Below, one piece after another: positions 7,885 to 51,991 of a stretch of DNA of 64,000 nt. The DNA is from Sipunculus nudus (Eukaryota; Annelida; Sipuncula; Golfingiida; Sipunculidae), in the NCBI GenBank assembly GCA_026874595.1, contig CM049309.1, positions 69,484,926 to 69,548,925 on the forward strand. The letters run 5' to 3'. Each line of letters opens with the position of its first letter. The first letter of the stretch is position 1. The notes beneath the pieces were generated by a model that worked only from the letters and a program-made list of their open reading frames with translations, searched no databases and was not told the origin of the DNA. The translations under genes and the position numbers were made by a program.

Positions 7885-9490
7885 CTCATAATTAATTGTA
7901 TCCCCAGACAAAGTCAGGAGATACTATGTTTTCATACCGGTCCCGCCGCCGCCGCTGCATATAAATCTTGTTGCCTCAATAACTCAAAAAATATTTCACG
8001 GATCTTTACCAAACTTGGTATATGTATAGATATTGGTGAGAGGACGACGCCTAATTAAAATGAGGTCATGACCTTGAATAGGTCCAGTTTGGGGGAAAAT
8101 CACACAAATTCTTCAATATCTCAAGAAATCTTGGATGGATTGATCCCAAAATCAAGTTGATGGAAGATCATGGATAAATATTGTCATGTTCCAGAAACTG
8201 GTGGCGCCACCTATTATTCTTTACTTGTTTTTGTGCCGTTTAACACCCCCAAAAGTGCTTCTTGACAGCACTGTGAGCATTATAAGTCAAAAACTAATGG
8301 ACAGATTTCTTTCATATTATGCATATACATAGATATAGGTTATGGGATGATGTTTATTTAAATTGGGGTCATGACCTTTCCAGTGAGAGTGGCTTTGACC
8401 TTGAATATTGCCATATATGGTGAAAATCACACAAAATCATTAATTTCTCAATAAGGGATGCATGGATTGGTCCAAAAATCAACTTGATCAAAGATCTTGG
8501 ATAGTTGTGTCATGTACCATAAACAGGTGGCACCACCTGTTATTCTTTTACTTGTTTTCGTGCCGTTTAATACCCCCATCATTGCCACTTAACAGTACTG
8601 TGAGCATTATAAGTCAAAAACTATCAGACAGATTTCTTTCATATTATACATATACATAGACATGGGTTATGGGATGATGTATATATAAATTGGGGTCATG
8701 ACCTTTCCTATTAGAGTGGTCTTGACCTTGAATATTGCCATATATGGTGAAAATTGCACAAAATCATTAATATCTCAATAAGGGATGCATTGATTGGTCC
8801 AAAAATCAACTTGATCGAAGATCTTGGATAGTATTGTCATGTACCATAAACAGGTGGCACCACCTGTTATTCTTTTACTTGTTTTTGTGCCTTTAATACC
8901 CCCATCATTGCCACTTAACAGTACTGTGAGCATTATAAGTCAAAAACTATCACACAGATTTCTTTCATATTATACATATATATAGACATGGGTTATGGGA
9001 TGATGTATATATAAATTGGGGTCATGACCTTTCCTATTAGAGTGGTCTTGACCTTGAATATTGCCATATATGGTGAAAATTGCACAAAATCATTAATATC
9101 TCAATAAGGGATGCATTGATTGGTCCAAAAATCAACTTGATCGAAGATCTTGGATAGTATTGTCATGTACCGGAAACAGGTGGAGCCACCTGTTATTCTT
9201 TGACTTGTTTTCGTGCCGTTTAATACCCCATCATTGCCACTTAACGGTACTGTGAGCATTATAAGTCAAAAACTAATGGACAGGTTTCTTTCATATTATG
9301 CATATCCATAGACATGGGTTAGGGGATGATGTATATTGAAATTGGGGTCATGACCGTTTCTATGAGAGTGACCTTTTCTATGAGTGTGGTCTTATATTAA
9401 TTGTTGCTGAAGATGGGGGGGCCTATTCTTGAAGGGGGGGACTAATTGTCTGGGGATACGATGGCACCTGCGGTGCCAAGAAATATCTAG
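7885..9490 (+). mobile_element. Helitron/Helentron-like tandem-core element (family A)
   Basis: GTATCCCCAGACAA at 7898-7911 and its exact reverse complement at 9446-9459 form a 14-bp subterminal inverted repeat. The tail continues with a hairpin, GGCACC-TGC-GGTGCC (9463-9477), nine bases, then CTAG (9487-9490) and a T run, the layout of a Helitron 3' end. A CCGCCGCCGCCGCTGC stretch lies just inside the head. The core has about four units of 325-330 bp, marked by GTGAGCATTATAAGTCAAAA at 8271, 8601, 8928 and 9253. Each unit carries GGTGGCGCCACC or a one- or two-base variant (8200, 8526, 8853, 9179). There is no helicase or Rep frame, so it is non-autonomous. Confidence 0.75.
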
Positions 9491-9566
9491 TTTTGATTGA
9501 TTTCTCGACCAAACAGATGTGTGGGAGTGCAAGTCCAAGATAGCAAAGTCTGATCTGAGTCCTTGG

Positions 9567-9800
9567 TCTATGAGCACTGTCAACTCGGCAGTGACGTCAC
9601 ACACTGGGAAATCCCCTGTGACTAAAAATTCTAGATCTCAGTAAAAGCACAGTATTTCTGCCACTGTCAGTCCAGAATTTTCATGAGGGAATAAGAACAA
9701 CATGCATTACTAGGGCTGAGTTGTTGATAAAATTCAGTCCATGTTGTTACATGTGTACAAGTCAATCAAATCAGGGCAAAGTCTGGGATCTGGATGAAAT
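9567..9800 (-). repeat. 234-bp repeat, copy 1 (3' end of a piggyBac-like element?)
   Basis: It aligns without net length change to 47004-47237, starting TCTATGAGCACTGTCAA and ending GGGATCTGG(A/G)TGAAAT. Identity looks high, roughly 85-90% by eye. It contains the end of the minus-strand Cys-rich frame described next. Confidence 0.85.
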
Positions 9801-9955
9801 CCTCCATTCACACAACAAATGCATGTGGTATAGGTTTTCTTAACCTTCAGTGCTACATCACACAAGTGACACCTATCAAAAACAGATGGTACTAAATGTT
9901 CCTGTGCCTCTGAACATTTTGCCTTCAGTGGCAATGAATGGTTTTCCCTCAACAA
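9734..9955 (-). pseudogene. piggyBac-like transposase C-terminal zinc-ribbon fragment
   Basis: The minus-strand frame of 73 residues contains RCHLCDVALKVKKTYTTC then ICC and GGFHPDPRLCPDLIDLYT. The order CxxC, about 12 residues, CxxC, then HxDxxLC near the C-terminus resembles the Cys-rich domain that ends piggyBac-type transposases (RCxxC...YYCxxC...LCxxxCFxxYH). The DDE catalytic region is absent, so this is at best a terminal relic. The frame end is retained in the second copy at 47.0 kb. Family assignment is by motif layout only. Confidence 0.45.
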
Positions 9956-9959
9956 GAAA

Positions 9960-12900
9960 CCTCAATGATCAGTTAATTGTTAATTTTTTTTATTGATATC
10001 ATGTTTTTCTTGTTGCAAAAGGTCACTAGGCTTATTTTTTGTTTGTTTCTAAGGTAGCATGATGTATCTATGTCATCAACAAGGTCACATGACTTCCATG
10101 AGGACACAGGTGCATTGAAATGGAGTGACTGTCTCACGCCATTGGTGCTTGTCATGTTGAACATATATATATAGAAAATACCCTTGAAAGGATACACTAT
10201 ACCTTGGCTGAAATTTTACCCCAGGTCCCTTAAAGCATATATGATGATTTCTGTGGGCGGTGTTCGCCAGGGATCCTATATCTAATGTTTTTGTTGTGAT
10301 CTGTTTCTTTGTCTAAGAGGTTTCATCATTGTATCATAAGACCTAAAAAAAAGGATGGGTTTCTTTTCTCAGAAATCAGTAAAGAGGGGTGAATTTTTAA
10401 TTACCTTTTTATTATAGGTTTTCGATTAAAACATTTTTGGCTTAACAGGTAAAAGCTCAACATAAATAAGGGAAATTGTATCAAAATTGTAGGCTTTATT
10501 TTCATAAAAGAAATGTCTTCACTTCTAGAGCTTTAAATTATAAACGTCTTTTGAAAATTAAAATAAAAAAAATGTGGATGGGGGGGGTGGCCGTCAGAAT
10601 TGATGCACAGTGCCTGGGAAACAACCTTTTTATGGCTTTATTTACATCTCTGAGCTTCAAAATGAGGAAATGTATTTTAAAAGGGAGTATGACTGGGAAA
10701 TACTCTTATATCCGTGGAGACAGAAATGTGTAGTTATTTCATGGATTCATAAATTCATTCTAGTTTTTTAAACTTGAGAGATTAAATCCTCAGTGAACTA
10801 ATCTCAGTATCTCAGAATCAAAACAAGCTTATAATAACTAATGACAGTTATTCAGCTTTAGTGTGAACACACTGTAAGGAATTGCAGCAAGGAGTCAATG
10901 TTTATAATAAAACAATCAACATGGAATGATTCCATAAAATAAGAATAGAACCTGCGCAAGCTATTGGAAAATTGTTCTGTAGTGATATCTGCGGGAATTT
11001 ATAATGTAACCACTGATATGTAAGGGTACAGGAGCCCTGCTATACAGTTTAATATTTTTGAAAATGAAACCCTTCACCTTGTGGTTGCGAGTATGGGATT
11101 TAATTTGGGAGTTTGTTAAAAAAATTTGCTGCAGTTTCAAATGGAAATTTGGTTTAAAAAAGAAATACAGTTACCCAGATCTATACATGGGCATATTATA
11201 CCTGAATCAAGTAGATGTCATGTTAAATGTGCAGATTTATTGCAAAGGTTCTTTTGGGGAAAAACTTCAAAATCTTAAATAATTAAAAATTTGTGGGTTA
11301 AGTACCATTAAGTCAGCAGTTGTAGGCAGACAGGAGGTTAATGAATGGGGTTCAGAGTATGTTATGACAGGTCACATGAAGAAAAAAAAACAGAAGTGAT
11401 TAACCCTCAAGATCCCAAGGCTTCCGTAATAATGTGATTAACAGATGAGAAAATGATGATAAGCCACTTCCTTCAAGAGTAATCATCATTACATTTAGGT
11501 CACACCAAAAACAATTGTTCTACTGAGTCACACATCCTATTTTTCACAGATCAGGTTTTTTTTGTGAATGAGTGCAAAACCCTTTGTATTAAAGCCAACT
11601 ATATTCTTACCTTATCTATAGAATTTATGTGTTTTCTGACTTACACTGAGTACATATTAATGAACTCTTGGATATTCCTGTAAGATTAGTCCTCATAATG
11701 CCTATGTAATGGATGTTTGAGCTTGTTTATCTACAAGCTGTGAGTAAACATGGCAGTGTTAACAAATGAAAAAAACATGTATTCTTAGGTGTTTGATTGC
11801 TTAAGTGCAGAATTTTAATGTACAGGTACCTTGAGGGCACCATGCAAATATAGCCAAAAATATTGATTTTACTCCCCATAGGGGCCCTGTAGGCTATGTG
11901 ATAGCTGCATAAATAATGCAATAGTTTCATTTCTTGAAGTTTTTTTGAAAACAGGTGAAATTTTCTGTTGTTCATACCATTTTGAAATTGTTGCACATTT
12001 TTGCATCCATCCTGTGAATTTACCAAACTTAAAGCTCATGTTTAGTTACCTATTCGTTCCTTATTTTTGTCCCTGAGCCCTTTGAACAGTGAATTTTTTG
12101 GTGTGGCCTGGAAAAAAAAATTTTGTAACTTTACAGCAATAAACATTCTTATGTACCAGAGGAGAATATTTTGAAATAATTGTGTAATTTAATGGATTTA
12201 GTCAATTTTCACAATCAAGTCAAAGGTTCGTCACATAAAGATTTGATGGTCATGCTCCTATCCAGTAGTGACACCTTGGGAGCATTAGTGAAACTACACT
12301 GTGGAACAGTCATTGATTATTTGTGTTAACATAGATCTGGCAGATGGGGGAACAGCCACTTTCAGATAGTTATAACCCCATCATAAAGAAGTACGTTCCT
12401 TTTCATTTCCTTAACACATCTCAGTATGGTCAACTTGCACTAATTTTGCTTCTTTAAAGTGCAGTTATTCTCATTGTGGTGGGTGGCCCCGAGACCCTCA
12501 TTATCCTGCCAATGGTATGATGACACAGCATCTCAGTTCTGGTTTCCATCCACATTTTCCCCTTGGGTGTCCTACACCTGTGTACTAGTTTTTTAAAAAA
12601 AAACAACCACATGATTTTCACAAAAAAATTTTTGATCTTACAGAAAATGGGTATTAAAGACAATTTAAAATTTAACTTTTCACTTATGACTGATTTTCAT
12701 TAGATTTAAATACAGTCAAGGGTCTATATCCAAGAAAAGTTTTTTTTTTTGGGGGGGGGGAAGTCACAGGGTTTTTGTTCAGATGAATGATTGTTCTGAT
12801 AAATGATTTTGCAGAATGCACCATGATTGCTAAGTACTGGATATTATCAGATGCTGACAGGCACAAATTATTTAAGCTATGCCAAGATAACCTTTTGGAG

Positions 12901-13690: not shown

Positions 13691-13691
13691 C

Positions 13692-15031: not shown

Positions 15032-15041
15032 CATGCACAAA

Positions 15042-15530: not shown

Positions 15531-15733
15531 GCGTGACAGCTTATTAAGGAATCATGTCATGGCCATTTAAATTGTATTTTTGCCATTATGTCTATAAACT
15601 GTTATATGAGGGTGTGTGTCATGTGATTATCTATGATTTATATTGGTCTGCTGAAAAAATTACAGGTAAATTGCTCTGTCAGGTAAGATATTGAATATTT
15701 GCAGGGATAGTCAGGACATCATTTTTGCAAGTA

Positions 15734-16542: not shown

Positions 16543-16544
16543 TA

Positions 16545-19095: not shown

Positions 19096-19099
19096 AAAT

Positions 19100-19304: not shown

Positions 19305-19306
<2 letters not shown>

Positions 19307-20770
19307 ATTTCTTCACATATTCAAATTGGCATCAATGTGCACTGAACACTACTGAGCAATTGTGTATCCAAAATATGATTTGAGCCTAATGGGACCACAA
19401 GAGGTAGCCCTTGTACCACATAGATCATGTTTTGTGTGTACATCTGGCTGTACAAAGGACATGACTAATTAGTTTAAGTGATCTTTAATGTCTACAGACC
19501 TGTGTCTTCTGTTGTTGGCATGGACTTAGTATTATATATAGCTTTACAAAGCACGCAAGTTTGTCATTTGAAAGTCATGCATAATGAACTACACACGCAT
19601 CTTCTATGTAAATCTCAAGATTACAAGGAAAGAAGACCCGGCTTTGGTCTTTGGTGGGCAGATTTTTATTTGGTTGTGTTTTATGCAGATGAATGAAAGG
19701 ATTCTAATTCACTTTACTCGCCGTTTAAATGTCAAGGCTTAGCTAAAAGAAGCGTCGTCTGAAGATGGTGCATGCTCACATTCTGGCTGCAGTCATTTGG
19801 ACAGAACTCATGTTTCAATTGCTACATACCGACCATCTGCTCCTGATGAGGCTTTTGTTCTGGAATGAAAAGCACGCTAAGATGTTTCATGGGCTGGAAA
19901 GTCATCTGAAAAGCAACAGCAGACATACCCATCCCTCCAGTGTCACACCGGTGTAACAGAATATTGTCCTACTATAAAAATATCAATGAATTTTCATCCT
20001 CTCTTCTTACTCTGGGAGCTAATTTACTTTTTTACTTTGCTAACTTGTTTAGTTAGAAACCTTCAGAGTTGTGCAGGTCTTCTTTAATTACAAATGGGGT
20101 TTATCATTTCAGGCAAGTTATTTTCAATTTAGTTTTTTGTGCACAACCTTGTTAGCTTGTTGTACAGTTGAATGAACACCAACCTCTTTGGTAAATGAAA
20201 CAGATGTACAGATACAAGTTTAACAAAATAAAACGCTGTTTAACGGAAATAATTTTGTCCTTTGCATGACCCAGAAGCATCAGTTTACCCAATACAATTT
20301 AATTAATTTGAAGAATTGCTTTTGAATTTTATGTTGGTTGGCATGGATCAAATTTTAAAAAAAATCAAAGAACTCCCATGATAAAAACTCTTTGTAGGAA
20401 TTATTTTTATTTTTTTCAGTGTAATCCCACCAGCTCAACTGAACAGTTGCTATAAATATAATAAATGATTTTTAGTCTGTCTAGTCATCCAGATTTTAGT
20501 CAGTAAAGTTTTGTAAATATTACAGAGGAACACCTGGGATTCAAGCCTTGTTTGTCCATTTTAAATTGGTCTGTATGTAATTTTTCCAGGTTTTCAAAAA
20601 TCCAGTCTAGAGTCTACTGTAAAATTGCCATTATCATAAACATCTAATACACAGATTGTAAAAATTTGACAAAGCAAGTTTAAATGTCAACTATCAGACA
20701 AACCTCAGTTTTTGGTAAGGCCACAAAATATTTTATCAGAAATTGTCCACTCAAATAAATGCCTTTTTTA
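19305..20770. other. Intronic sequence, no gene or element recognised
   Basis: Short frames at 19478-19696 and 19765-19956 have no family signature and no splice or promoter context. Confidence 0.5.
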
Positions 20771-23697
20771 GCGAACCTGTGAGCTTATGCGATGGTGCGG
20801 CGGCGTCCGTAGCGTGTCGTGCGTCCTACGTCGTGCGTCATGCGTCGTCTGTAAGTTAACCATAGCCATCTCAAAAACGGCAGGAGCTAGCATCACGAAA
20901 TTTTTTGCAAATAATCAGTCATCCAAAAAACTATATCGGATTTGTTTATTTTTTTTCAAATTACATTTTCGTAGATTTTATTGGGAAAAAGCTAAAAAAG
21001 TTTTAAAATTTTCTTTTCCGAAATTGTCTAGCCAAATTGTCCAAATATTTCACAGAAATGATCCCTGGAACAATTTTCTCAAGTTTTAGTTCGAATGGTT
21101 CCAGTTCGGAGATTTTTTGGCCAAGTTACAGGAGGTTGAACTTTGTTAACTGTGCAAAAAAGCATATTAAAATTTAAATCTCAGAAACGGCTGGAGCTAT
21201 CATCACCAAATTTTATAACAATATTGGTCACATGAGTCATATAAAAAAATTGAGGTATTGGTGGCGCCACCTGCATCGGCCTTTTTTGTACAGGGTCATT
21301 AATGCCTGTATCATACTGACGGCTACAAAAAACTTCTTCTCTGAAACCATATGGCCAAAATGTTTAATATCGCACAGAAATGATCCTAGGGTAGTGCTTT
21401 CTGAAGTTTGTTCAAATGGTCTCAGTTCAGTGACTTTTGGCTGAGTTATGGGAAGCTGAATTTAGTCATATGCTGTAACAGCCCATTTTAGCTCAGTGGC
21501 TACAAAGATCTTCTCCTCAAAAACCACTGGGTCAAATTCTTAAATCTCACACATTAATTATCCTTAGATGTTGATTATTCAAGTTTGTTCAAATGGTTTT
21601 GGTTCAGTGATTTTTGGCTGAGTTATGGGAAGCTTAACTTAGCCATTTTGCTGTATTTTCCAACGTTTTTTGACTGATGCCACTGAGGCCAATTTGTTTA
21701 ATATTTTACAAGAATAATCCCCTGAATAATTCTTATGATAATTGTCTTTTATGGTTCCAAAGAATGAATTTTGGCTGAATTATAAAGATTGAATTGAGTC
21801 ATTTTACCATATATGTTAGCTGTAGGAAGCAGACACATCTAGCCTGGCACTAGTGTATCAGCATTTATTACATCATGCCTCTAGACATTTAAATTTCAGG
21901 TTATCAATGGTTAATATTGACAAGAATGTTTATCAAAAGCTTTAAAAATTGTAGATTTGATTTGTGAATGGTCCAGCCAAATTGTTCAATATTTTACATA
22001 AATGATCCCAGAGGCAAGCCCTCTAAAGTTTGTTCAAATGGTTTGCATTTGATGAATTTTAGTGAAATTTCACAAATTTGAACAGTCATTTGGCCAAGTA
22101 AGCATACTGACAAAGTACTCTCAGAAATGACAGAAGCTAGCATTACCAGGTATTGTGCAAATGTTGATCACATGACTCATATTTGAAGTTTCAGATTTTT
22201 TGGTGCCACCTACATTGACCTGTTTTTTATAGTTAAAAAAACTCATAATTTTAGCCTCTTTCAGCTTAATGATGAAACTGTCAAGTTGAATTGTTCAATT
22301 TTTCAAAATAATTATCCTAGGACATGGTCCTTTCAATCATATCAGAATATACTGAGTTTGTTGATTTTTGGTCGAGTTGTGAAAAGCGTAAGTTGGTCTT
22401 ATGGCCATTATTATGTCTTTTTCAAACTGAGGACTACAATAGTGTTTTTCTACAAAATTATTGTTTCAATTATATCTTCTGTACCATTGCACAAAAATTA
22501 TTCTTAGGTGGCCTTTGTTCAAGTTTACTAGAATGATATTTGGCAGAACTATTGGACCTTTCACAATGAAAGTACTGCATCTTTTATTATTCTAGATATT
22601 TTGATAAAAAGTTTATGAATATGTAGGCTTGAAAAAAAAAACATTTTAGCCAAAGTCTTTCAGTATGTGTAAACAGATAAACCAACAGGCCAAGATTGAA
22701 TCCGTATCATTAAATAGGTTGAGAAACTGCCAACTGTTTCAGCTTTGGCAACAGATCAAGAGTTCATTGAGTGCAGTTAGATATAGGTCAAGAGTTCAAT
22801 CAGTGCAGTCAAGCACAAGGCATGTGATCACTTCATGGGTGACATGTGAACACCTCATGGGCACCATGTGATCACATCATGGATGTCAAGCCCCTCAGGG
22901 CAGGGCCCCTGCATAAGTATATGCAATGGTGTGGCTACTATTTCAGATTTGGCAACAGGCTTGAGGTCAGTCTGGATCTATTTATAGCTTTGGCAGACTG
23001 CCAACTGTATCAGATTAGGCAACAGGTCAAGAGTTCACTCAGTGCAACCAGGTATGGGTCAGGAGTTTACTCAGTGCAGTAGCTGCATTCTATTTATAGC
23101 TTTGGCAGACTGCCAACTGTGTCAGATTATGCAACAGGTCAAGAGTTCACTCAGTGCAGCCAGGTACAGGTCAAAAGTTCACTCAGTCTAGCCAGGTGCA
23201 GGTCATTAGTTCACTCAGTGCAGTAGCCTGAGCAAGCAATTTGTCACAGTTCACTCGGGGCAACAGCCTTTCTCTCCTAAGCCTGGTCAGCCCCATGCAT
23301 CAGACTCATGATAAGTTTGATGTACTGGCCTAATATTTTGACCTGTCTATGTATCTTTGATGGCTTTCTGGCTCACAAGACAGGTGTCGCCATCTACAAT
23401 GACTTTTGCACAGTGTGTGTCCCTGCGTTTTTCTCAGGAGGGGTTTGATATATCAGTCTGATATTGGGCATTTGTATATATCTCTGATAGTTTCGTTGTA
23501 TACAAGACTAGTGGTGCCAGCTACAATCTTTTTAGTGTTGTGTGCACCCATGCCAGAATTTCAGCAGTGATGTTTGTGTAAATGTTTCTTTTCAAAATGT
23601 TAAGTACTTGCATTGTTCATATGCATGAAAAGTAATGGTCCAGAATTGAAGCATTATACCTGGTGCACAGGTTCGCATTAGGCCTGTAGGCCTTGTT
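20771..23697 (+). mobile_element. Helentron-like tandem-core element (family B)
   Basis: GCGAACCTGTG (20771-20781) and CACAGGTTCGC (23666-23676) are perfect inverted subterminal repeats. The tail ends with a hairpin, AGGCCT-GT-AGGCCT (23680-23693), then TGTTTTT. Just inside the head is a CpG-rich stretch (20787-20850, GCGGCGTCCGTAGCG and similar). The first core part repeats phrases such as CTCAGAAACGGC(T/A)GGAGCTA and GTTCAAATGGT...GAGTTATGGGAAGCT. It carries GGTGGCGCCACC at 21260-21271 and decayed versions near 22200 and 23385. A second tandem type at 22660-23260 repeats GGTCAAGAGTTCACTCAGTG. No transposition gene is present. Confidence 0.7.
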
Positions 23698-23827
23698 TTT
23701 AGATAATCAGTGATGGCCAACAGTTAATACTATGAATACAAACTGTAAGAAATTGACATGGAGTAATAAATAATTCATATTACAGTTTGTTTTAAGGCCA
23801 CGCCAGAAACAAGGCTTCTCCTCTGTT

Positions 23828-26758
23828 TATTGCTGACTGAAAGTCATCTGAGCTATAGCGAACACACTTTGTCCGTTATCTGTCCAGCCATTAGCAGGAC
23901 ACAAATCATAACCACTGGACCTAGAAATGTCAACTGAAAAACCCGAAGAGTTCCAGGGCTTTCAGGAACATGGGGGTAAGAGTCTGAGATGCTCAAAATC
24001 TTATATGGATGCTTGACTCTTGGGGTCCAAGTGTCTCATCTGACACACAATTTTCTGACTGTAGGACCAAGAGGATCAAACAATGCCCTTGTAGCAGTCA
24101 CTGAATATTGTTTGCTGTCTCAAACAAACCAGAAAGTTGTGTAAACTCTCCACTGACAACTAACCCTTACAGTTCTCTTTAATGGAATCATATAATAACA
24201 CAATTTTTAATCATATAATGACACAATAATGCATATATAAAAAAATGATCAGTTTTCAAATAGTATCTCCCATTGGGACGCACCAAACTTAGATGGGACT
24301 TTCCAACATTTTGACCTGAAAGTCCTTTTGAAATACCTAGGAACTTCTAACTGTACATCCAGGAAGGTCTTAGGCAAATCTCCTTGGAAACCTGAAATTA
24401 AGTCATGGTGACCTATATTTTGCAAACCACAGGCTAAAAATATGATTTTGAGCACCCAGTCAGTCAGATGGAGCACAAATTGTATCTGCTAAGCCTAAAA
24501 TATTCTAGCCTTACATCCATGGAGGTCCATAAAAATCTCATGGGAAACCTAAAATTTAGTCACTGTGACCTATATCCTTTGACCTATGGGGCTTGAAAGT
24601 ACATGCCAGAATAAGTAAATATTTGATACAAAAGCTCCAGTATCTGAATAACTAATGCATTGATTGCCATGATTCTTTCCATGCATTTTGATCATGGAGT
24701 GTTTCATCATTTCCTGAAGACTGGTGGCGCCACCTGTATTTTATCTAATTTTTTAGCTCAGCTGACTGTAAGTCAGCTGAGGTTTAGGAATGGCGCTTTG
24801 TCTGTCGTCCGTCTGGTCATCCGTTAGCAGGGCACAAATCATAACTGCTGGTCCTAGAAACTTCTAAGTGAACATCCAGGGAGGTCAATAAAAAATCTCC
24901 TCGGAAACCTGAAATAAGGTCACTGTGACCTATATCCTCCGAGCTATTGGGCTTGTAAATACCCCCAAGAATAATCAATAATTTGATATAAAACCTCCAA
25001 TATCTTGATAATTAATGCATGGATTGTCATGAAACTTGCCTTTAATATTGACCATGACTATTTTTGTCAGTTCCTGAAAAGTGGTTTCGACACCTGTATT
25101 TTTTCTTATTTTTACGAATATTTTTTTATTTTTTTTTTACTGTAAAATGACAACAAATATGTCAGTTTCTCAGCTATGATTCCATTTAGTGTCCCAAAAC
25201 CTGCTGTGTTTATTGATCACAAGTGGTGCCCTATTGTAATCACCCTGTCTGTTTGTTCATCTGTCAGTCTGTCTGTCCATCCGTCCATCCACACAAATTT
25301 GTTTCCAGATGATATCTTCAGGTTAGATTGACATCTGGATTTCAGACATGACTTCACATGGCCCATCACTAAAGAAAGATTCTGTATGCTTTTTGGGTCA
25401 ATAGGTCAAAGGTCAAGGTCTCAAGACTCACTTATTTAAAAAGACAATGGCTGCATTTTAATCCCAAACTTTCCATCTTGCACATTTAGCTGACTTGACA
25501 GTATAAATGAGCATAAATGAACATGGGATTAAAAGGTCAAAAGTCAAGGTCACAGGAGCCATCTGTTTACAAATTAGTTTCCAGATGATAACTCAAGTTT
25601 AGTTTGACATATTGGTTTCAAACACAACTTTTATGTGGCTCACCACTAAAATAAGAACCCTGTTGATTTTAGGGTCCAAAGGTCAAAGGTCAAGGTCACA
25701 GGACCTATTTCTTTAAATGGAATGTGTATCCATTTCAAGCCAAACTTTTCATCACAAACCTTCCATCTTCAAGATATTACTCACCTGCAAATAGGGGAAG
25801 ATTCTTTTTGATTTGGGGTCACAGGTCAAGGTCACAGGGCCCATCCATTCACAAACTAGTTTATGGATGATAATTCTGCTTTGGCTTGACAGATTGGCTT
25901 CAAACTTGATTTATTAATGACCCACCACTTAAGTTAAAAAATCATTTTGATATTCAGGGTCCAGAGGTCAAAGATGAAGGTCACAGGAGCCATATCTCTA
26001 AAATGATTGTCGATGCAATGTAAATCAAACTTTTCATCACAAACTTTCCATCTTTCACACATGGCTTACTTGCCCAAAGTGGAAGAAATCTGTAGATTTT
26101 GAGGTTACCTGGTCAGAGGTCAAGGTCACTGGACCCACATTTTTTAGCAGATTGTTACAAAAATCTAAATGGTGCAAGTTCAAGGATAATAAGTTCTCAG
26201 ATTTTTGGGTCACAAGGTCATTGGTTTAGGTCACAGGACCATCATTTATAAAAATTTCTTTAAAAATATCCTTATAGACAAATACAGCTGAGCATCGAGA
26301 CCAATGGGTCCCTAGTTCTGTATTTTTGATACCGTTAGATAATGCAGTCCGTTTAGGGCATATATCGTAATGGTTAGTCCTAGATACATCTAATTATCCC
26401 TGATAAACCTGAAATTAGGTCATGGTGACCTGTATTACTGCCCCCAAAAAATTTAAGCAACCCAGACAGTCAGGCAAGGTACAAAACTTTACAGTTGGAC
26501 ATAGAATCTTCAGTCTTGACATCCAGGGATGTCCTAGAAAATGTGCCTGGTCATTTTTAGCTCAGCTGACTGCATACAAAAGGCTAGATTTCATGGGAAT
26601 GGCTTGACATATTATCATGAAACTTTATCATTTTGTTGCTTTTGAAGATTTAATTGCTTCAGCTGAATGGGGATACCACCTACACAATTTGGCATTTAGA
26701 TGATAAAATTTCTGTCATAAATGCCTTCCTGAGCATCATGACCCATGTGTCACTTGTT
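23828..26758 (+). mobile_element. Composite Helentron-like elements (family C), two heads and two tails
   Basis: Heads with the stem-loop CAGCTGACTG(A/T)AAGTCA(T/G)CTGAG lie at 23831 (truncated) and 24754-24783. Tails lie at 26286-26313 (CAGCTGAGCATCGAGACC, then AATGGGTCCCTAGTT) and 26731-26757 (GAGCATCATGACCCATG, then TGTCACTTGTT). Between 25200 and 26280 the core changes to a unit built around AGGTCAAAGGTCAAGGTCAC. The block looks like one element inserted into, or fused with, a related one. GGTGGCGCCACC occurs at 24723-24734. Confidence 0.6.
25400..26230 (+). repeat. Tandem units rich in AGGTCA half-sites
   Basis: About seven units spaced 105-150 bp each carry AGGTCA words. Examples are AGGTCAAAGGTCAAGGTCA at 25680-25698, AGGTCAAAGGTCA at 25403-25415 and AGGTCAAGGTCA at 25823-25834 and 26117-26128. 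Alternate units also share TTTCCAGATGATA and CATCACAAACTTTCCATCTT, giving a dimer of about 280 bp. Confidence 0.8.
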
Positions 26759-29745: not shown

Positions 29746-30840
29746 ATTGTATCCGCCAAAACAAAGTTTTTTCAACGTTCCAACGTCTATGGCGCAACCG
29801 CCGTGGCGTTCGTTTTCAGAGAATTCCTCTTAAACCCTAGATCTTTCCGAAACCAAGCATAGTTATTCCCTCACCTATGTAGTTGTGCCTAACAAAGACT
29901 GGTGGCGCCACCTGCAGTCCTTATTGTGCAGTACAAAGCTGGGTGTCTTTTTTTATAACAGCCCATATCTCAGGATTGTTTCAAGTATTGAGCTGAAATT
30001 TTGCATGTCCATAGATCATGGATCTGTCCATCTTATACTCAAGACTGATGGCACCTACAATGACTTCTGTGTGGTGTCCATCCATGCGTTTGCCAACTGT
30101 TCATCTTAGTAATTGGTTCAACATATTCCTGAAATTGTGCATGTTTATAAACCTTGGATACCTCCATCTGATATTCAAGACTGGTGACGCAATCTGCATG
30201 TGTTTTGTATGTTTGCTTTAGGTGAAAATTGCTCATATCTCAGGAGTGGTTCAGTGCATTGGTCTGAAATTTGGTATGGCCAGTTATCGTGGAGAGTCTC
30301 TTATAGACCAGACAGGTGGGGCCACCTACCTTCCTCTTTTTTGTAGAATTCATTAATGCCCTTTTCTCAGGAGTGATTTGCCCTATTGGCCTGAAATTGT
30401 GCATATCCATTGATCTTCGATACCTCTATGTTGTTTTCAAGACTGGTGGTACCATGTGCAATTGTTTTTGCTGTCCATCTGTCTGTTTGCTTTAGGTAAA
30501 ATTCGCTCATATCTGAGTAGTAGATGGATATATCAGCCTGATATTTTTTTGCATGTTTATCAGTCTGGGATAGCTTTGTTGTAGACCAGACCTGTGGCGC
30601 CGCCTGCTGTTCTATTCTTATAGAATACATTGATACACTTTTTCTCAGTAGTGGATTGGTGTCTCGGCCGAAAATCTTGCAAGGTGTTTCCATCAGTAGA
30701 TCTGTTTTTGGTGAAAATTTCTCATATATGAGGAGTGTAATTGGCATCACTGATGCCACAAATTTGGAATCATGTCATGTCAGGAACATTCCATGCCTTA
30801 CTTCACCCATGCCTTTGTGATATGGCAGATACACAAAGTT
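29746..30840 (+). mobile_element. Helentron-like tandem-core element (family D, degraded)
   Basis: TGTATCCGCCA (29748-29758) and TGGCAGATACA (30823-30833) are inverted with 10 of 11 matches. A CG-rich stretch (GCGCAACCGCCGTGGCG, about 29791) lies inside the head. The core repeats CTCATATCTCAGGA(G/T)TG and 'CTGAAATTTTGCATGTCCAT...GATC'. It carries GGTGGCGCCACC at 29901-29912 and variants at 30184, 30316, 30445 and 30593. The tail ends without a clear CTTGTT or CTAG. The 130-residue minus-strand frame at 30367-30759 is inside this repeat and is not a gene. Confidence 0.5.
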
Positions 30841-38630: not shown

Positions 38631-39738
38631 TTATTAGTTCACTCTGTGAACTTATGTCATGGCGCAGCGTCCGCCGTCCACTGTCAACTGTCCACTGTCT
38701 GTTACCAAATATCTCAACAGCCACTGCAGCTGCCTTCATGAAACTTTGCAGAATTACTGGTCATGGGATGAATATGCAAAAATAAGCTTTTGGTGGCGCC
38801 ACCTGTGTCGACCTAGATTCTGCGGACCAAAATGGTCTTTTTCACTTCTTCCAAGATAAGTCGAAAAGTATAAATATCATGGCCTTCATATCATAGGCAA
38901 AAGTTCCTTAGAGGAAGGGAAATAATTTGGGTGTAAATTGAGTCAAGTCATTTTCAAAATGGCGTCTCTACAGAACTTTAAATTGTGTTGATCGCAAAAT
39001 TTGGCAACTTGATATGTTTCCATACATGATGTATTGTCTGTTACCAAATATCTTAGGAACTGCTGCAGCCTTCAGTTTCAAATTTCACAGTAATATTGAT
39101 CATGTAACTGCTAAATGATAATGAACTCAAGGTGGTGCCACCTGTGTTGACCTACTTTCTGCTGGTTGTAATGGTCTTTTCATCTTTTTCCAAGATAAGT
39201 CATAAAGTATAAATATTTTGGATTTCATATCATAGTCAACAGTTCCTAAGAGGAAGGGGAATAATTTGAGTATAAATTCAGTCAAGTCATTTTCAAGATG
39301 GCTTCTCTACGGAACTTCAAATATGTTTCAATCGCAAATTTTGGCAACTTGATGTGTTTCCATACATGATGTATTGTCTGGTACCAAATATCTTAGGAAC
39401 TGCTGCAGCCTTCAGTTTCAAATTTCATAGGAATATTGATCATGTGACTTTCAAATAATTTTGACCTGCAGGTGGCGCCACCTGTATTGAGTTTCATTTG
39501 CTGTTGTTGAAAATTGCTCATATCTCAGGAGCATTGGTCTAAAATTGGCATGTGCATCAATCTTTGAAAGTTTCCTGTTAAAACTAGACAGGTTGGGCAA
39601 CCTACCTTGTGCAGTAGAATACTGTCCACTTGGAAAGGAATAAATGTTTTTTTCACATTCAATTTTTTTCTTTTTTAATCACCCCCCATCATGCACAGTA
39701 ATTCACAGAGTGAACATTAGACCCCTGGGTCTCTTGTT
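38631..39738 (+). mobile_element. Helentron-like tandem-core element (family F)
   Basis: GTTCACTCTGTGAA (38637-38650) is exactly inverted at 39702-39715 (TTCACAGAGTGAAC). The tail then has the hairpin GACCC-CT-GGGTC (39720-39731) and TCTTGTTTC. Inside the head lies CGCAGCGTCCGCCGTCC. The core has three units of 340 bp, marked by TACCAAATATCT at about 38703, 39043 and 39383. GGTGGCGCCACC occurs at 38792 and 39471, and GGTGGTGCCACC at 39131. Confidence 0.75.
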
Positions 39739-39739
39739 T

Positions 39740-41900: not shown

Positions 41901-41904
41901 ATTT

Positions 41905-42400: not shown

Positions 42401-42413
42401 TTATATGTTACAG

Positions 42414-42705: not shown

Positions 42706-44376
42706 TTTTATGCCCCCACCACAAAGTGGCCGGGGCATATAGTTTTACCCATGTCCGTCCTTCCGTCATTCCGAAATCAAACAGTTGTACGGATTTTTTT
42801 TCGCAATGCCTGCAGATATTGGCCTGATTTTTTGTGTGTGGGCAGATAATGACCAGTTACTGATCGAGTTTGCGTTTTGTCCCGGTTGACCTACTTTAGA
42901 CCGTTTTACGGCTCCTAAACTTAGAAAATTTCATGAAAAATAGAAATTTTCATGACAAATACACATGTACGGACTTTTTTTCGCAATGCCTGCAGATATT
43001 GGTCTGATTTTTGGTATGTATGCAGATTATGACCAGTTACAGATAGAGTTCGCGTTTTGTCCCAGTTGACCTTCTTTTGATTGTTTTACGGCTCATTAAC
43101 TTAGAAAATTTTATGAAAAATAGAAATTTTTATGACAAATACACATGTACGGACTTTTTTTCGCAATGCCTGCAGATATTGGCCTGATTTTTGGTGTGTA
43201 TGCAGATATTGACTAGTTACAGATTGAGTTCGCGTTTTGTCCCAGTTGACCTACTTTTGACCGTTTTACGGCTCCTAAACATAGAAAATTTCATGAAAAA
43301 TATAAATTTTCATGACAAATACACATGTACGGACTTTTTTTTTGCAATGCCTGCAGATACCGCCCTAATTTTTTATGTTTGGGCATATAATGACCAGTTA
43401 CAGATCAAGTTAGCGTTTTGTCCCGGTTGACCTACTTTTGATTTTTTTACGGCACCTAAACATAGAAAATTTCATGAAAAATATAAAATTTCATGACAAA
43501 TGTACATGTACAGCTGTTTTTAGCCCTCAGCTCATAGGATGATGGGCTATTGTCGTCACCCAAGCTGTCCGTCTATCTGTCCGTCCATCTGTCTCTCAGG
43601 AACCATTGTGTGGATTTTCACAAAACTTACTTTGCTCATTGGGACTGATGGTCTGTAGTTGCTGCACAATTTTGGTGGCGTCACCTGTAATTTCTGATTT
43701 TTTAATGAAATTTTATCGAATTTTTAAATTTTGGCCTTTTGTGCGGGATATCTCCAAAGGTATTCAACTAAGGAACTTCATTACTTCAGTGCTTTTGCAT
43801 CATATTTACAAAATCTTGGTCAAGTTCAAAGATGGGTGGTCTTGACTTACTTTTCTAGGTCACAGAGCTTAGTATAGAAAAAAACTTAGGGGGATATTTC
43901 TCAGGAAGAATTTGGTGGATTGTTATAAAACATGGTACATACCTCTCCAATTTGAATTTATAACTGATTATCAACTTTTGCTAATATTCTAGTTTCGCAG
44001 TGCAATGCTTACAGATACTGGCCCAATGTTTGGTGTGTGGGCGCATAATGACCACTTACAGATCGAGTTCGCGTTTCGTCCCAGTTAACCTATTTTTGAC
44101 CAAATGACAGATCCTGAACATAGAAAATTTCATGAAAGACAGAAATTTTTATGAAAAATGCACATGTATGAACTTTTTTTCACAATGCCTGCATACTGGA
44201 CTGATTTTTGGTGTGTTGCTTGATAATGACCTGTTACAGATCCAGTTTGCATTTTGCCCTTCTTGACCTACTTTTGACCATACAACAACTCCTGAACTTA
44301 AAAAATTTTACAAAATTTAACAAATGTTTCTAATTTGCCCCAGGCGGGGGCATTCGTGTCATTCCAACACATCTAG
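42706..44376 (+). mobile_element. Helitron-like element ending CTAG (family E), interrupted
   Basis: ATGCCCCC (42710-42717) is inverted as GGGGGCAT (44346-44353). The tail continues GTGT-CATTCCA-ACAC (44356-44370) and AT-CTAG (44373-44376) before a T run, as in Helitron 3' ends. The core has a 180-bp unit marked by CGCAATGCCTGCAGATA at about 42803, 42982, 43162 and 43343, and decayed units after 44000. The array is split by the insertion described next. No coding sequence for a transposition protein is present. Confidence 0.7.
43521..43992 (+). mobile_element. Element nested inside family E
   Basis: The family E unit breaks after a T run at about 43520 and resumes at TTTCGCAGTGCAATGC (43993). 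The intervening 472 bp begins TAGCCCTCAGCTCATAGGATG and runs to ATGGGCTA, with a possible AGCCC/GGGCT stem. It then has (GTCCGTC/TATCTGTCC) words and GGTGGCGTCACC at 43673-43684, and ends with CTAG (43989-43992). Confidence 0.55.
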
Positions 44377-46990: not shown

Positions 46991-47003
46991 AACTATGGGC
47001 ACA

Positions 47004-47237
47004 TCTATGAGCACTGTCAAATCGGCAGTGACGTCACACACTGGGAAATCCCCTGCGACTAAAAATTCTAGATCTCAGTAAAAGCACAGTATTTCTGCCT
47101 CTGTCAGTCCCAAATTTTCAGCAGAGAATAAAAACAACATGCATAACTAGATCTGAGTTGTTGATAAAATTCAGTCCATGATGTCACACGTGTACCAGCC
47201 AATCAAATCAGGGCAAAGTCTGGGATCTGGGTGAAAT
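47004..47237 (-). repeat. 234-bp repeat, copy 2 (piggyBac-like 3' end)
   Basis: This copy has the same length and order as 9567-9800. On the minus strand the end of the Cys-rich frame is still readable as FHPDPRLCPDLIGWYTC. Flanks differ from copy 1 on both sides, so this is an independent insertion or internal-deletion derivative. Confidence 0.8.
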
Positions 47238-47439
47238 TACTTAACCTTATGAGAAAACTGAACTGCAACAACCATCCATCCTACTTCATTAATTGTTAAC
47301 AGCCAGTAATTTATTATTAAAGGTGCCCATTCACCTACCTTTTGAAAAAAAATTTGTGATTTTTGGTTTCCTCTGTATATATATTAATGTTCTAAGGGTA
47401 GTTTTATTTTTTTAAAGTTTTTATAAGGCCTTAGTTAAG

Positions 47440-47775
47440 GATGTATGAACTTGTTTATCAACAACCCTTTTGTTGACAGAGAAATGTTGACAAACGGGAA
47501 AAACATGTAACATAAGGTGGTAGGTTGCATATATTCATAGGTAGAATTAGAAAGGTCACTTGTTGTAAAAGGCCATTTGCAAAGCTCTGGCTTATTTGAC
47601 TTGCTAAAAAAGCCCTTGTTGAATTTGTTTGATTATTTTGGCAGGCCCCCACATATTATAAACATGTTGATATAAACAAACATGCAGCCTGTGTGCAGTG
47701 ATGTGTGCATTTTCTGGACAATTTTAATAAAAGCTCCAAGGGATTACCTTTAGTTTATGAAGGTCAGATGGGTGA
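47440..47775 (+). repeat. Old duplicated block, copy 2
   Basis: It is collinear with 31790-32100. Its first part (AACTTGTTTATCAACAA... AACATGTAACATAAGG) also resembles 11717-11800. Confidence 0.65.
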
Positions 47776-47960
47776 TTAGGCCCCTTCAAGCCGAGAGTCC
47801 AGAAATAAGATAAAGAATACAGTTGAAGTGTAAATGCCCATCTATATGGTATATGTTGCCATTTCCTGTTCTGGTAGGATTTAGCTGTTTGGAAGCCACA
47901 GGAAACATAGCATGTTTGTCTGCAGTCAGAAATTCAACAAACATTTACTAGGATAGGCAT

Positions 47961-50900
47961 TTTTAGCTCAGCTGACTGAAAGTCATCTGAGCTATAGCGA
48001 TCACTCTTTATACGTTGTCCGTCTGTCTGTCCGTCTGTCTGCCTGTCTGTCCGTCTGTCTGTCCGTTAACCAGGCACAAATGGTAACCGCTAGAAATGGA
48101 ATCTTCTTACTTGACATCCTGGGAGGTCCATGAAAAATCTCCTTGGAAACCAGAAATTAGGTCTCTGTTACCCATATCCTTTGAGCTATGGGGCCCCAAA
48201 GTACCCCCCAGAAAAGTCCAAAATTTCAAACAAAAACTTCAATATCTCATTAACAACTTGACTGATGGTCATGATTTTTGGCATACATATTGATCATGAG
48301 AGGTTCCATCAGTTCCTGAAGACTGGTGGCGCCACCTGTATTTTTCGATTTTTTACGAATTTTTTTCTCTATTTTTGAGACCTTTAAAAATGTGAACATC
48401 TGTTAACAAGGCACAAATCGTAATGACTGGACTTAGAATCTTCATTCTCAACACACTGAGAGACCTATGAAAAGTCTCCATGGAAACCAGAAATTAGGTC
48501 TATGTTACCCATATCCTTCCAGCTATGGGGCCCCAAACTACCCCCCAGAAAAGTAAAAAATTTCAAACAAAAACTTCAATATCTCATTAAATACTTGACT
48601 GATGGTCATGATTTTTGTCATATATATTGATCATGAGATGTTCCATCACTTCCTGCAGACTGGTGGCGCCACCTGTATCGTTCAACTTTTTACGACTTTT
48701 TTTCTCTATTTTTGAGACCTTTCAAAATGTAAACATCTGTTAACAAGGCACAAATCATAAAGACTGGACCTAGAATCTTCATTCTTGACACACTGAGAGA
48801 CCTATGAAAAGTCTCCATGGAAACCAGAAATTAGGTCTCTGTTACCCATATTCTTCGAGCTATGGAGCCCCAAAGTACCCCCAAGAAAAGTAAAAAATTT
48901 CATACAAAAACTTCAATATCTCATTAACTACTTGACTGATGGTCATGATTTGTAGCATAACTATTGATCATGAGATGTGTCATCACTTCCTGCAGACTGG
49001 TGGTGCCACCTTTATTGTTTGATTTTTTACAATTTTTTCCTCTATTTATGAGACCTTTAAGGATGCTGTCATCTGTTAGCATGGAACAAATCGTAACGAC
49101 TGGACCTAGAATCTTCATTCTTGACACACTGAGAGGTCCATGAAAAATATCCTTGGATCCAGAAATTAGGTCTCTGTTAACCATATCCTTCGAGCTATGG
49201 GGCCCCAAAGTACCCCCCCCCCTGAGTAGTCAAAAATTTCATACAAAAACTTCAATATCTCATTAACTACATCACTGATGGTCATGATTTTTGGCATACA
49301 TATTGATTATGAAATGTTCCATCAGTTCCTGCAGACTTGTGGCGCCACCTGTATTGTTTGATTTTTTACGATTTTTTCCTCTATTTTTGAGACCTTTAAG
49401 GATGCTGTCATCTGTTAACGTGGCACAAATCATAAGGACTGGACCTAGAATCTTCATTCTCGACACACTGAGAGACCTATGAAAAGTCTCCATGGAAACC
49501 AAAATTAGGTCTCTGTTACCCATATTCTTCGAGCTATGGAGCCCTAAAGTACCCCCAAGAAAAGTAAAAAATTTCATACAAAAACTTCAATATCTCCTTA
49601 ACTACTTGAATGATGATCATGATTTGTGGCATAACTATTGATCATGAGATGTGTCATCTGTTCCTGCAGACTGGTGGCGCCACCTGTATCGTTCGATTTT
49701 TTACGATTTTTTCCTCAATTTTTGAGACCTTTAAGGATGCTGTCATCTGTTAGCATGGCACAAATAGTAACGACTGGACCTAGAATCTTCATTCTCAACA
49801 CACTAGAAGACCTATGAAAAGTCTCCATGGAAACCAGAAATTAGGTCTCTGTTACCCATATCCTTCGAGCAATGGGGCCCGAAAGTACCCCCCCAGAGTA
49901 GTCAAAAATTTCATACAAAAACTTCAATATCTCAATAACTACATCACTGATGGTCATGATTTTTGGCATACATATTGATTATGAGATGTTCCATCAGTTC
50001 CTGCAGACTGGTGGAGCCAGCTATGTTATCTATCAAGAGGGTACAAATTGCAACAACTGGACCTAGAAACTTCATTCTTGTCATGCAAGGAGGCCCATGA
50101 AGAGTGCCTGTGGAAACTTGAAATTAGGTCTCTGTTACCCATATCCTTCAAGCTATAGGACTCTGAAGTATCCCTCAGAATAATGGACAATTTGATACAA
50201 AAGCTGAAGTATCTGAACAACTAATACGGAGATCATCATGATTCTTTGCATGGATATTGACCATTAAGTGTTTTTAGCTCAGCTGACTGTAAGTCATCTG
50301 AAGTATCCCTCAGAATAATGGACAATTTGATACAAAATCTCAAGTATCTAAACAACTATTGCAGTGATCACCATGATTCTTTGCATGGATATTGATCATG
50401 GAATGTGTCATCAGTTTCTGCAGTATGGTGGCGCCACCTGTATTTTTTTTATTTTTATGAATTTTTTTCTCTATTTTTGAGACCTCATAAGATGCAGTCA
50501 TCTGTTAACATGGCACAAATTGTAACAACTGGACCTAGAATCTTCTCTCTTGACATCCTGAGAGGCCCATGAAAAGTTTCCTTAAAAACTTGAAATAAGG
50601 TCTCTGTTACCCATAACCTCTGAGCTATGGGGCTCCGAAGTACCCCCCAGAATAATGGAAAATTTGATACAAAAACTCAAGTATCTGAACAATTATTATA
50701 TTGATCACCATGATTCTTTGCATGGATATTGATCATGAAATGTTTCATCAGTTTCTGCATTCTGGTGGCGCCACCTGTATTTTTTCAATTTTTAGCTCAG
50801 CTGACTGAAAGTCATCTGAGCTGTAGGGATCACCTTTTGTCCGTCGTCCGTCCGGCCATCCAGGCGTCTGTCTGTTAACAGGGCACAAATCGTAACCGCT

Positions 50901-51991
50901 AGACCGGGAATCTTCTTACTTGAAATCCTTGGAGGTCTAAGGAAATTCTCCTTGTAAACCTGAAATTAGGTCACTGTGACCTATATTCTTTGAGCTATGG
51001 GGTTCTGAAGTACCCCCCAGAATAATGCAAAATTTAATACAAAAGCTCAAGTATCTGAACAACTTATGCATTAATCACCATGATTCTTTGCATGGATATT
51101 GATCATGGAATGTTTCATCAATTTCTGGAGATTGGTGGCGCCACCTATATTTTTTTTATTTTTTACGATTTTTTTTTCTCTACTTTTGTGATCTTTAAAC
51201 ATTTGGTCATCTGTAAACAGGGCACAAATCATAATGACTGGACCTAGAATCTTCTGTCCTCACCTCCAGGGAAGCCCATAAAAAGGTCTACATGGAAACC
51301 CTAAATAAGGTCCCTGTTACCCATATTCTGTGAGCTATGGGGCCCTGAAGTACCCCCCAGAATAAAGATTTGGTCATATATAAACAGGGCACAAATCATA
51401 ATGACTGGACCTAGAATCTTCTGTCCTCACCTCGAGGGAAGCCCATAAAAGGTCCACATGTAAACCCGAAATAAGGTCCCTGTTACCCATATCCTTCATG
51501 CTCTGGGGCTCCGAAGTACTCCCCAGAATATAGATTTGGTCATCTGTTAACAGAGCACAAATTATAATGACTTGACCTAGAATCTCCTTTCTTGATATGC
51601 TGGGAGGCCCCTGAAAAGTCTCCTTGTGCACCTGAAATTACATCTCTGTTACCCATATCCTTCATCCTATGCGGCTTTGAAATACCCCCCAGAATAAACA
51701 TTTGGATTTGTTAACAGGGCACAAATCATAATAACTGGACCTAGAATTTTATTTTTTGACATGCTGGGAGACCCCTGAAAAGTCATCTTGTAAACCTTGA
51801 AAATAGGTGTCTGTTACCCATATCCTTCATGCTACAGAGCTCCATAGTACCCCAATGAATATTGGATGATTTTATACAAAAGGTCAAGTTTGGAAAAAGT
51901 ATTTCATTCAAATTTGACATTCAGATGATAAAATTACTTTTGTCAATGTCTTCCTGGTCAGCTGAGCGTCATGACCCCTGGGTCACTTGTT
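47961..51991 (+). mobile_element. Large tandem-core Helentron-like array (family C)
   Basis: The head TTTTAGCTCAGCTGAC...GTCATCTGAGCT (47961-47992) forms a stem-loop and is followed by (GTCCGTCTGTCT)n at about 48018-48064. The tail has GTCAGCTGAGC (51957-51967), inverse of GCTCAGCTGAC in the head, then the palindrome-like TGACCC-CT-GGGTCA (51972-51985) and CTTGTT (51986-51991). The core has six 335-339 bp units, marked by GGTGGCGCCACC or variants at 48325, 48662, 48999, 49338, 49673 and about 50010. Extra internal heads at about 50275 and 50793 precede units at 50427, 50764 and 51134. After 51200 the unit shortens to about 167 bp. No transposase is encoded. Confidence 0.75.
51200..51720 (+). 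repeat. Shortened (about 167-bp) family C units
   Basis: Copies begin AACAGGGCACAAATCATAAT at about 51216, 51384, 51551 and 51713. Each keeps the first half of the 337-bp unit up to CCCCCCAGAATA and lacks the half with the GGTGGCGCCACC palindrome. Confidence 0.75.

Follow-up and report, generated by a model that had tools for sequence, protein, structure and literature searches.

A conserved 12-bp palindrome in the central tandem repeats of HINE families with unlike ends in Sipunculus nudus

The window, i.e. the whole 64,000-nucleotide stretch of the S. nudus genome analysed here (contig CM049309.1, positions 69,484,926 to 69,548,925 of assembly GCA_026874595.1), contains several element families, A to D and F, whose repeats carry the 12-bp palindrome GGTGGCGCCACC, hereafter the box. 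The box is perfect at all 12 coordinates given for it in a preliminary description of this DNA, and variants with one or two mismatches were found at 11 further sites. It belongs to a module of about 120 bp, in which the order described earlier, i.e. ATATCTCA, (C)ATGAAATTT, GATCATG and then the box, is visible in alignments. The features are as follows:

7898..9490 (end approximate), + strand: HINE family A, with 5' subTIR GTATCCCCAGAC at 7898 and 3' subTIR GTCTGGGGATAC at about 9448
8095..9370, + strand: tandem array of family A, 3.9 copies of 326 bp
8200, 8526, 8853 and 9179, + strand: boxes of family A, the first perfect, the others with one change each
About 9462-9478, + strand: hairpin of family A, TGGCACC-TGC-GGTGCCA
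20770..23700 (end approximate), + strand: HINE family B, with 5' subTIR (A)GCGAACCTGTG, 3' subTIR CACAGGTTCGC at 23666 and hairpin AGGCCTGTAGGCCT
21169..21283, + strand: module of family B, perfect box at 21260
23305..23531, + strand: two diverged modules close to the end of element B, box variant at 23383
24622..24740, + strand: module of family C, perfect box at 24723, with a family C head about 20 bases further on (24755)
29749..30620, + strand: F units, with head GTATCCGCCAAAACAAAG, whose subTIR start is shared with the 280-bp family; a matching tail was looked for and not found
29901, 30315 and 30593, + strand: boxes of the F units, the first perfect, the others variants
38636..39735, + strand: HINE family D, with subTIRs GTTCACTCTGTGAAC and TTCACAGAGTGAAC (about 39703), hairpin AGACCCCTGGGTCT and 339-bp units
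38792, 39131 and 39471, + strand: boxes of family D, the second with one change, the others perfect; an F-type unit follows the last box
43592..43693, + strand: single diverged module, box variant at 43674
47965..51992, + strand: HINE family C, with subTIR AGCTCAGCTGAC, IR, GTCC/GTCT microsatellite and 337-bp units
About 50277 (partial) and 50795, + strand: extra family C heads within 47965..51992, which has one tail only
48223..51155, + strand: modules of family C, perfect boxes at 48325, 48662, 49673, 50427, 50764 and 51134
48999, 49338 and 50010, + strand: box variants of family C
51957, + strand: 3' subTIR GTCAGCTGAGC of family C, with hairpin TGACCCCTGGGTCA

Judged by their anatomy, the window repeats are the central tandem cores of several families of HINEs, i.e. 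non-autonomous Helentrons. HINEs have subterminal inverted repeats (subTIRs) of about 11-15 bp. The arrays of A, B, C, D and the 280-bp family are flanked by subTIR pairs and then by a 3' hairpin, and the central repeats keep a fixed orientation relative to the element ends. The subTIR arms are exact over 11 bp for A, B, C and D in the window and for the 280-bp family in loci L012 and L054; the scan, run without a shuffled control, gave 10 rows in the window (six from these families, four from others) and four in the loci (two from these families). Hairpin stems measure 6-7 bp in all five families, the hairpin being a condition of the scan. Nine C-type heads with an IR and a GTCY-type microsatellite were found, four of them in the window; A, B, D, F and the 280-bp family yielded none in that scan. 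HINEs are characterised by insertion between T and T without target duplication, and a run of T precedes seven of the nine C-type heads. HINEs of mites are also described without an IR and with microsatellites in only some copies (PMC4067079), and the combination of IR and microsatellite is therefore not defining for HINEs. The Cg_HINE elements of the oyster Crassostrea gigas are described as having subTIRs at both ends, a 3' hairpin and central repeats of fixed orientation, as here, and T-rich insertion sites, which the runs of T before C-type heads would fit; they share with family C the IR and the GTCC/GTCT microsatellite (PMC7492417). HINEs with satellite-like cores are already known. No Rfam family among 4227 matched positions 7800-52100 of the window at its gathering score. 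The preliminary description had recognised no named SINE or MITE core; what was seen indeed fits neither a SINE nor a classical MITE, and the assignment is corrected to a HINE (Helentron) anatomy.

Helentrons are thought to copy by rolling-circle transposition, and four Helitron_like_N elements were examined as possible autonomous partners, which would carry Rep/helicase and like ends. One of them, L063, with an open frame of 2,342 aa, is 94 % identical to the 3' end of family C over 35 bp, and another, L064, has a 3' subTIR-like word without a hairpin; matching 5' ends were not found in the four elements, nor was a partner seen for the families other than C. Their 9.9-kb pieces, which cover some but not all of the 5' ends, contain no box at up to one mismatch, which counts against the box as a required transposase site. 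Boxes do occur upstream of the C17 Helitron_like_N element, but in a distinct HINE, a 280-bp family member that has ends of its own.

The box is far more frequent than expected, both locally and genome-wide. In the window, 23 sites lie within two mismatches of it, compared with 0.26 expected per shuffle (maximum two in 100 shuffles), and the genome holds 111,729 perfect sites versus 14 for the same word reversed. The genome-wide ratio of one-mismatch to perfect sites, an estimate, is about 0.98, higher than in the module sample (40 to 70). Among viral contigs there was one match; it lies in a phage-like contig, within an open frame, shows no likeness outside the box and was judged to be due to chance.

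With a profile built from the 23 window units, every clear match falls on the + strand; minus rows are weak or confined to the box. While the window modules are on plus, those of the first 20 loci from C1 (0.12-0.57 Mb) are on minus, with weak plus rows at the box end only. Chromosome-arm polarity as a chromosome-wide rule was rejected because the strands are balanced (111/98 and 7,541/7,767), and strands clump weakly along C1 (21 runs versus 26.4-28.4 expected, p 0.03-0.08 depending on merging distance). Unexpectedly, all 42 modules close to kinase exons point with the gene, these coming from only five gene regions.

The module is related across five subTIR pairs, which bears out the earlier statement that families with different ends have it in common. 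Units of 280 bp contain two boxes and those of 326-339 bp one. The families do not reduce to a single recent one, since the modules form 14 clusters at 75 % identity. The dissimilarity of the ends, also claimed before, holds between the groups {A, 280-bp, F} and {B, C, D} (heads z ≤2.5, tails z ≤0.4, single representatives) but not inside them, where several heads or tails are alike. With single representatives throughout, heads are alike in A and the 280-bp family (z 17.8), F and the 280-bp family (z 8.0) and B and D (z 6.3), with A and F compared directly reaching only z 1.0, and tails are alike in C and D (z 7.4) and B and D (z 4.0), those of A and the 280-bp family being unlike (z -0.3). 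With the box omitted, modules from different end groups still resemble each other at z ≥3 in six of 12 pairs (highest: C-A 5.9, C-F 5.5 and G1-B 5.2), the remaining six being at z ≤2.2. Likeness of heads goes together with likeness of modules for 280-bp and F, as well as for B and D.

Family identity before and after the box is the same in 132 of the 139 assignable units; it differs in seven, one of them a clear switch, and the box is therefore not, as a rule, a switch point between families. This analysis covered 145 units, six of which were unassignable on one or both sides, after dropping six of 153 modules without a box at up to four changes and two with short flanks; neighbours from the same array were retained.

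Within the module, the least variable stretch is GGTGGCGCCACCT, i.e. the palindrome plus the following T. In the window and loci L021-L060 the minority rate within clusters is 0.071 for the box versus 0.173 upstream (39 of 49 modules, in clusters of at least four members). Loci L001-L020, which had been fetched for perfect boxes, were excluded from this smaller set, while the window was kept although the box was first noticed there; hence the rate was repeated without it, giving 0.072 versus 0.183 (19 modules before the cluster-size filter). For all modules it is 0.059 versus 0.157 (139 of 153). Agreement among the 14 cluster consensi is 0.917 for the box versus 0.659. When 111 twelve-column windows were ranked, first place went to the box moved one column so as to take in the T, and second place to the box itself. 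In clusters of at least six members with ungapped boxes, 70 of 131 modules carry a box identical to the consensus of their own cluster, whereas the corresponding share averages 0.213 over 88 upstream windows and peaks at 0.44 there; for the smaller set, the most intact window upstream reaches 0.48, nearly the level of the box (14 of 27). The profile used for module detection includes the box. The palindrome is thus better kept than the neighbouring core positions both within and between families, contrary to the possibility, raised in advance, that it would be no better kept. Seen in a single species, this conservation suggests a constraint that is not fully separable from shared descent.

Our preferred reading, to which we give a probability of roughly 45 %, is that the box, handed down from an ancestral HINE core, serves as an internal site for a putative DNA-binding protein. 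In favour of this reading, the two half-sites vary alike and the central palindromic double, described below, is scarce; the central CpG, which is not specially protected, speaks against it. An ancestral HINE with the box already in its central repeat would have given rise to the present families, the ends diverging or being replaced while the core was retained. The reason for retention may be that the box is the site of a putative dimeric, sequence-specific protein, encoded either by the host or by a Helentron, which would help copies to persist or multiply; intact boxes would then have spread by rolling-circle copying and exchange within arrays.

The box might instead be simply the slowest-changing part of an ancestral core, kept alike through repeated rounds of rolling-circle copying and through exchange between arrays, and without a function, which we regard as improbable although it fares best among the alternatives. 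Other module positions are also well kept, e.g. ATCTC and GAAATTT, and one 36-mer of family C recurs unchanged at 209 places, a sign that amplification is, or has been, recent. Nor does the central CpG enjoy special protection: it is kept in 89 of 133 cases versus 74 of 119 for other module CpGs (20 of 28 versus four of 12 in the window and L021-L060), and 53 of the 119 changes found in 145 boxes fall on it. Copying, however, acts on the whole unit, yet, within clusters, the box varies about 2.4 to 2.7 times less than the sequence upstream.

Rather unlikely, in our view, is that the palindromy itself matters, with the self-complementary boxes of adjacent units pairing in single-stranded DNA or intron RNA to form unit-length loops that aid array growth or processing. 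Minimum-energy DNA folds, computed without a control, pair box with box over 10-12 bp in ten of ten two-box segments, but such folds follow from self-complementarity and are therefore no independent test. Palindromic double changes gave a mixed outcome: GATGGCGCCATC, at 431 sites, is about twice as frequent as the hand estimate of 203, leaning towards palindromy as such, whereas the central double GGTGGTACCACC is scarce, with 633 sites (control 64) against hand estimates of 2,000-5,000 derived from single-change counts. A further control is inflated, since a single array (C1 10.74-10.83 Mb) accounts for 29 of its first 100 sites listed. In clams, 13 of 16 array breakpoints of another satellite are reported to fall in a 12-bp palindrome, and DTC84, an element of Donax, has a conserved palindrome close to its repeat junction (PMC5139131); in the present families, switches at the box are rare.

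Repeated capture, i.e. one module taken up several times by unrelated HINEs, had been proposed before, with constraint as the other option. The related modules of A and C, despite unlike ends, and the F-type unit directly after the last box of D would fit it; nevertheless we consider it unlikely because the flanks of the box so consistently belong to the same family and like heads go with like modules.

The CTCF core motif is AGRKGGCRSY. The opposite strand, AGGTGGCGCCACC, holds this core, and on this reading HINEs would spread insulator-type, CTCF-like sites; the conserved A adjoining the palindrome fits, molluscs have been reported to possess CTCF orthologues (PMC10658182), and a guide used for deletion of the mouse HS+44 site, GAAAGCCAGTGGCGCCACCT, has 12 of 13 bases in common (PMC13083895), although the guide overlaps the site and contact bases are thereby not proven. 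We find this very doubtful, as the half of the palindrome dispensable for CTCF varies no more than the other (64 and 53 changes in the half-sites of 145 boxes) and CTCF degeneracy fits 32 of 100 box changes versus 23 of 101 when the reading is mirrored, without clear preference.

Several known systems resemble the box in part. As described, group 2 of Cg_HINE has like ends and unlike repeats, group 3 differs throughout and only group 1 shares two segments, in contrast to the unlike ends seen here, whose related repeats have one box in common, a comparison of descriptions rather than of sequence letters (PMC7492417). Oyster Helitrons also have conserved boxes, Box1 and Box2, used for recognising elements, but these lie in the flanks and contain the subTIRs, whereas the present box occurs in every central repeat unit (PMC11136912). 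By description only, the box can be likened to the palindrome near the DTC84 repeat junction in pearl-type elements of Donax trunculus and to the BIV160 and Cg170 satellites, whose monomers hold two conserved segments amid divergence within HINE-type elements (PMC5139131). This box was not found in the HINE literature searched, a scope outside which the original DTC84 clam description lies, and whether the DTC84 palindrome is the same decides much of the novelty.

The CENP-B box is 17 bp long and has a different sequence. It, too, is a short box across otherwise unlike satellites (also PMC5139131), but the present boxes are dispersed over the genome. It is tempting to speculate, though we think it rather improbable, that HINEs with unlike ends kept one recognition site for a dimeric host protein and planted it in introns genome-wide, oriented along transcription. 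Rolling-circle transposons would then have built a dispersed system, akin to the CENP-B box or to insulators, with over 111,729 sites.

The box bears on why Helentron passengers carry satellite-like cores: as it has outlasted change both at the ends and elsewhere in the repeat, the core is perhaps more than filler. Near exons, the seemingly uniform orientation offers a second test of how the elements insert or are purged. Were the box to serve transposition, it would be an internal cis-element of a kind not seen in the HINE literature searched; were it a chromatin or insulator site, transposons would have distributed it to over a hundred thousand positions. The box may be used as bait for finding the putative protein.

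The 12-bp palindrome GGTGGCGCCACC (the box) occurs at all 12 window positions listed as perfect in the preliminary description, with 11 further sites carrying up to two changes (shuffled sequence yields 0.26 sites). In the genome (1.4265 Gb, 153 contigs, of which C1–C17 total around 1.397 Gb and resemble 17 chromosomes), we counted 111,729 perfect copies versus 14 for the reversed word. A search with 13 bases and up to one mismatch gave 361,045 matches (control 431), with every perfect box matching on both strands. After removal of perfect-copy matches, 137,587 one-change matches inside the 12 bases remained, i.e. by hand estimate around 109,000 sites at 1.26 matches per site, a ratio derived from 41 of the 159 first-listed sites found in both single-change counts. 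On contig C1, box sites at 3.70–3.76 Mb follow a period of around 10.4 kb, resembling a large tandem duplication, and box variants at 10.74–10.83 Mb are dense across around 85 kb with some steps of 1,385 bp, resembling a long satellite-like array.

The boxes sit in the central tandem repeats of several element families (A, B, C, D, F and a 280-bp family). Scanning for exact inverted arms with a hairpin behind them, without a shuffled control, recovered ends of the non-autonomous Helentron (HINE) type for five of them, while 4/10 rows in the window and 2/4 in the other loci were not HINE ends:

7898-9490, window, HINE family A
20770-23700, window, HINE family B
38636-39735, window, HINE family D
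47965-51992, window, HINE family C
Loci L012 and L054, ends of the 280-bp family

The five families are credible since the arms flank box-bearing arrays, and heads and tails (5' and 3' ends) recur between families. Their subterminal inverted repeats (subTIRs) are unlike (GTATCCCCAGAC, GCGAACCTGTG, GTTCACTCTGTGAAC, AGCTCAGCTGAC and GTATCCGCCAAAA) and therefore define five families under the criterion quoted in PMC4067079, which asks for 11 or more identical bases in the subTIR. At 29749, family F opens with the same subTIR as the 280-bp family. The inverted repeat plus GTCY microsatellite known from oyster Cg_HINE (PMC7492417) is confined here to family C-type heads (nine heads). Within the family C element, heads occur at 47966, 50277 (partial) and 50795 but a tail only once, an arrangement suggesting duplication inside the element more than nesting of complete insertions; in this element, at 24755 and in locus L007, heads lie in a T run around 20–30 bases past a box. 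Among 143 listed genome matches to Helitron_like_N, a candidate autonomous partner, one of four elements examined (in L063) carries the 3' terminus of family C at its own end (35 bp, 94 %).

Other repeats were also seen in the window. A 180-bp tandem array (42781-44358), found near GTCC words (43565) and a single diverged module (43592), is perhaps a further HINE family. Two copies of a 234-bp repeat (92 % identical) lie directly past element A (9567-9800) and shortly before element C (47004-47237), and a long minisatellite (35/70/105 bp, unit like TTGGTGTCAAATGAATGTCAAGACATGGCAGCTGG) spans 60996-62740.

Repeated capture of the module by unrelated elements fits less well than common descent with change of ends. 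Single representatives of the groups {A, 280-bp, F} and {B, C, D} were compared across groups using mononucleotide shuffles: modules without the box were alike (z≥3) in 6/12 pairs, whereas heads (z≤2.5) and tails (z≤0.4) were not. The flanks on either side of the box were assigned to one family in 132/139 assignable units, the sole clear switch being D to F at 39471; a few old exchanges may have occurred.

The palindrome had been proposed for comparison with its flanks, and it is indeed the better conserved, both within and between the 14 clusters (75 % identity) formed by 153 modules from the window and loci L001–L060. The minority rate, measuring variation within clusters, was 0.059 for the box versus 0.157 upstream over all modules (139/153; 0.038 without the central CG), 0.071 versus 0.173 in the window plus L021–L060 (39/49 modules), 0.072 versus 0.183 in L021–L060 without the window (from 19 modules) and 0.074 versus 0.142 in the window alone. 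Agreement between cluster consensi was 0.917 for the box versus 0.659 upstream. Among twelve-column windows (n=111) the box was second least variable, after the box shifted by one base to include the T that follows it. It equalled its own cluster consensus in 70/131 modules (88 upstream windows: mean 0.213, maximum 0.44), and in 14/27 modules of the smaller set (window plus L021–L060), where the upstream mean was 0.143 but the maximum 0.48. The central CpG was kept in 89/133 cases, much like other module CpGs (74/119), and absorbs 53 of 119 changes across 145 boxes, which is evidence against special protection of the box centre.

We infer a function for the box, the simplest reading of such a symmetric, specific and kept word being a putative site for a dimeric protein. 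If self-complementarity alone mattered, other palindromes should do equally well. The version with central TA occurs at 633 sites (control 64), whereas by hand around 5,000 would be expected from independent single changes, or around 2,000 if the second change follows the non-CpG transition rate (4.3 %, the rate given by the 9,525 single changes seen at position 2 or 11); the result for the centre counts against pairing as the sole factor. At positions 2 and 11 the balance tips towards pairing, with 431 sites of GATGGCGCCATC against around 203 expected. The non-symmetric double GATGGTGCCACC reached 2,805 against around 2,000, a control inflated by 29 of the first 100 listed sites sharing one array, and all double-variant expectations are rough and mix copies of differing age. 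A CTCF-like core in the box is a lead only.

A possible orientation bias was seen near kinase exons. Of 20 stretches around such exons, four held modules, 14 in all (E up to 0.01) and every one on the exon's strand, L048 contributing a single partial match at its edge. Three added stretches from two of the same regions, hence not independent, gave 28 modules (E up to 0.001) in two, all co-oriented. Combined, 42/42 modules in 6/23 stretches (L041, L043, L048, L054, L068, L069) are co-oriented, i.e. 5/5 gene regions, too few for certainty. L068 probably lies inside a gene, since C4 has a pair of kinase exons, around 31 kb apart, that cover successive parts of the domain. Judged by eye from place lists, a family C copy on C2 shares the strand of a kinase exon (one stop) 11 kb away, and one on C6 is opposite in strand to a kinase fragment (four stops) at a distance of 5.5 kb; L066 holds one weak module oriented against a Helentron frame that lies some kilobases off. 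The bias could reflect purging of antisense copies, as the box plus T reads AGGTGG in antisense, resembling a 5' splice site, and 5/6 elements counted have more AGGT[AG] in antisense than in sense (exception B). Insertion coupled to transcription could likewise produce it.

A literature text match to GGTGGCGCCACC was found in one paper, a chitinase study, and none of the 11 papers matching its inner 10-mer is, by title, about repeats. The box and its count were not found in the openly available Helentron/HINE papers searched, including oyster and clam studies. The phenomenon is real and abundant: HINE families are linked by an internal box of unusually high conservation. According to PMC12628747, the same array type occurs across different Helitron elements, so that shared cores are already known in principle; this box and its count may be new.
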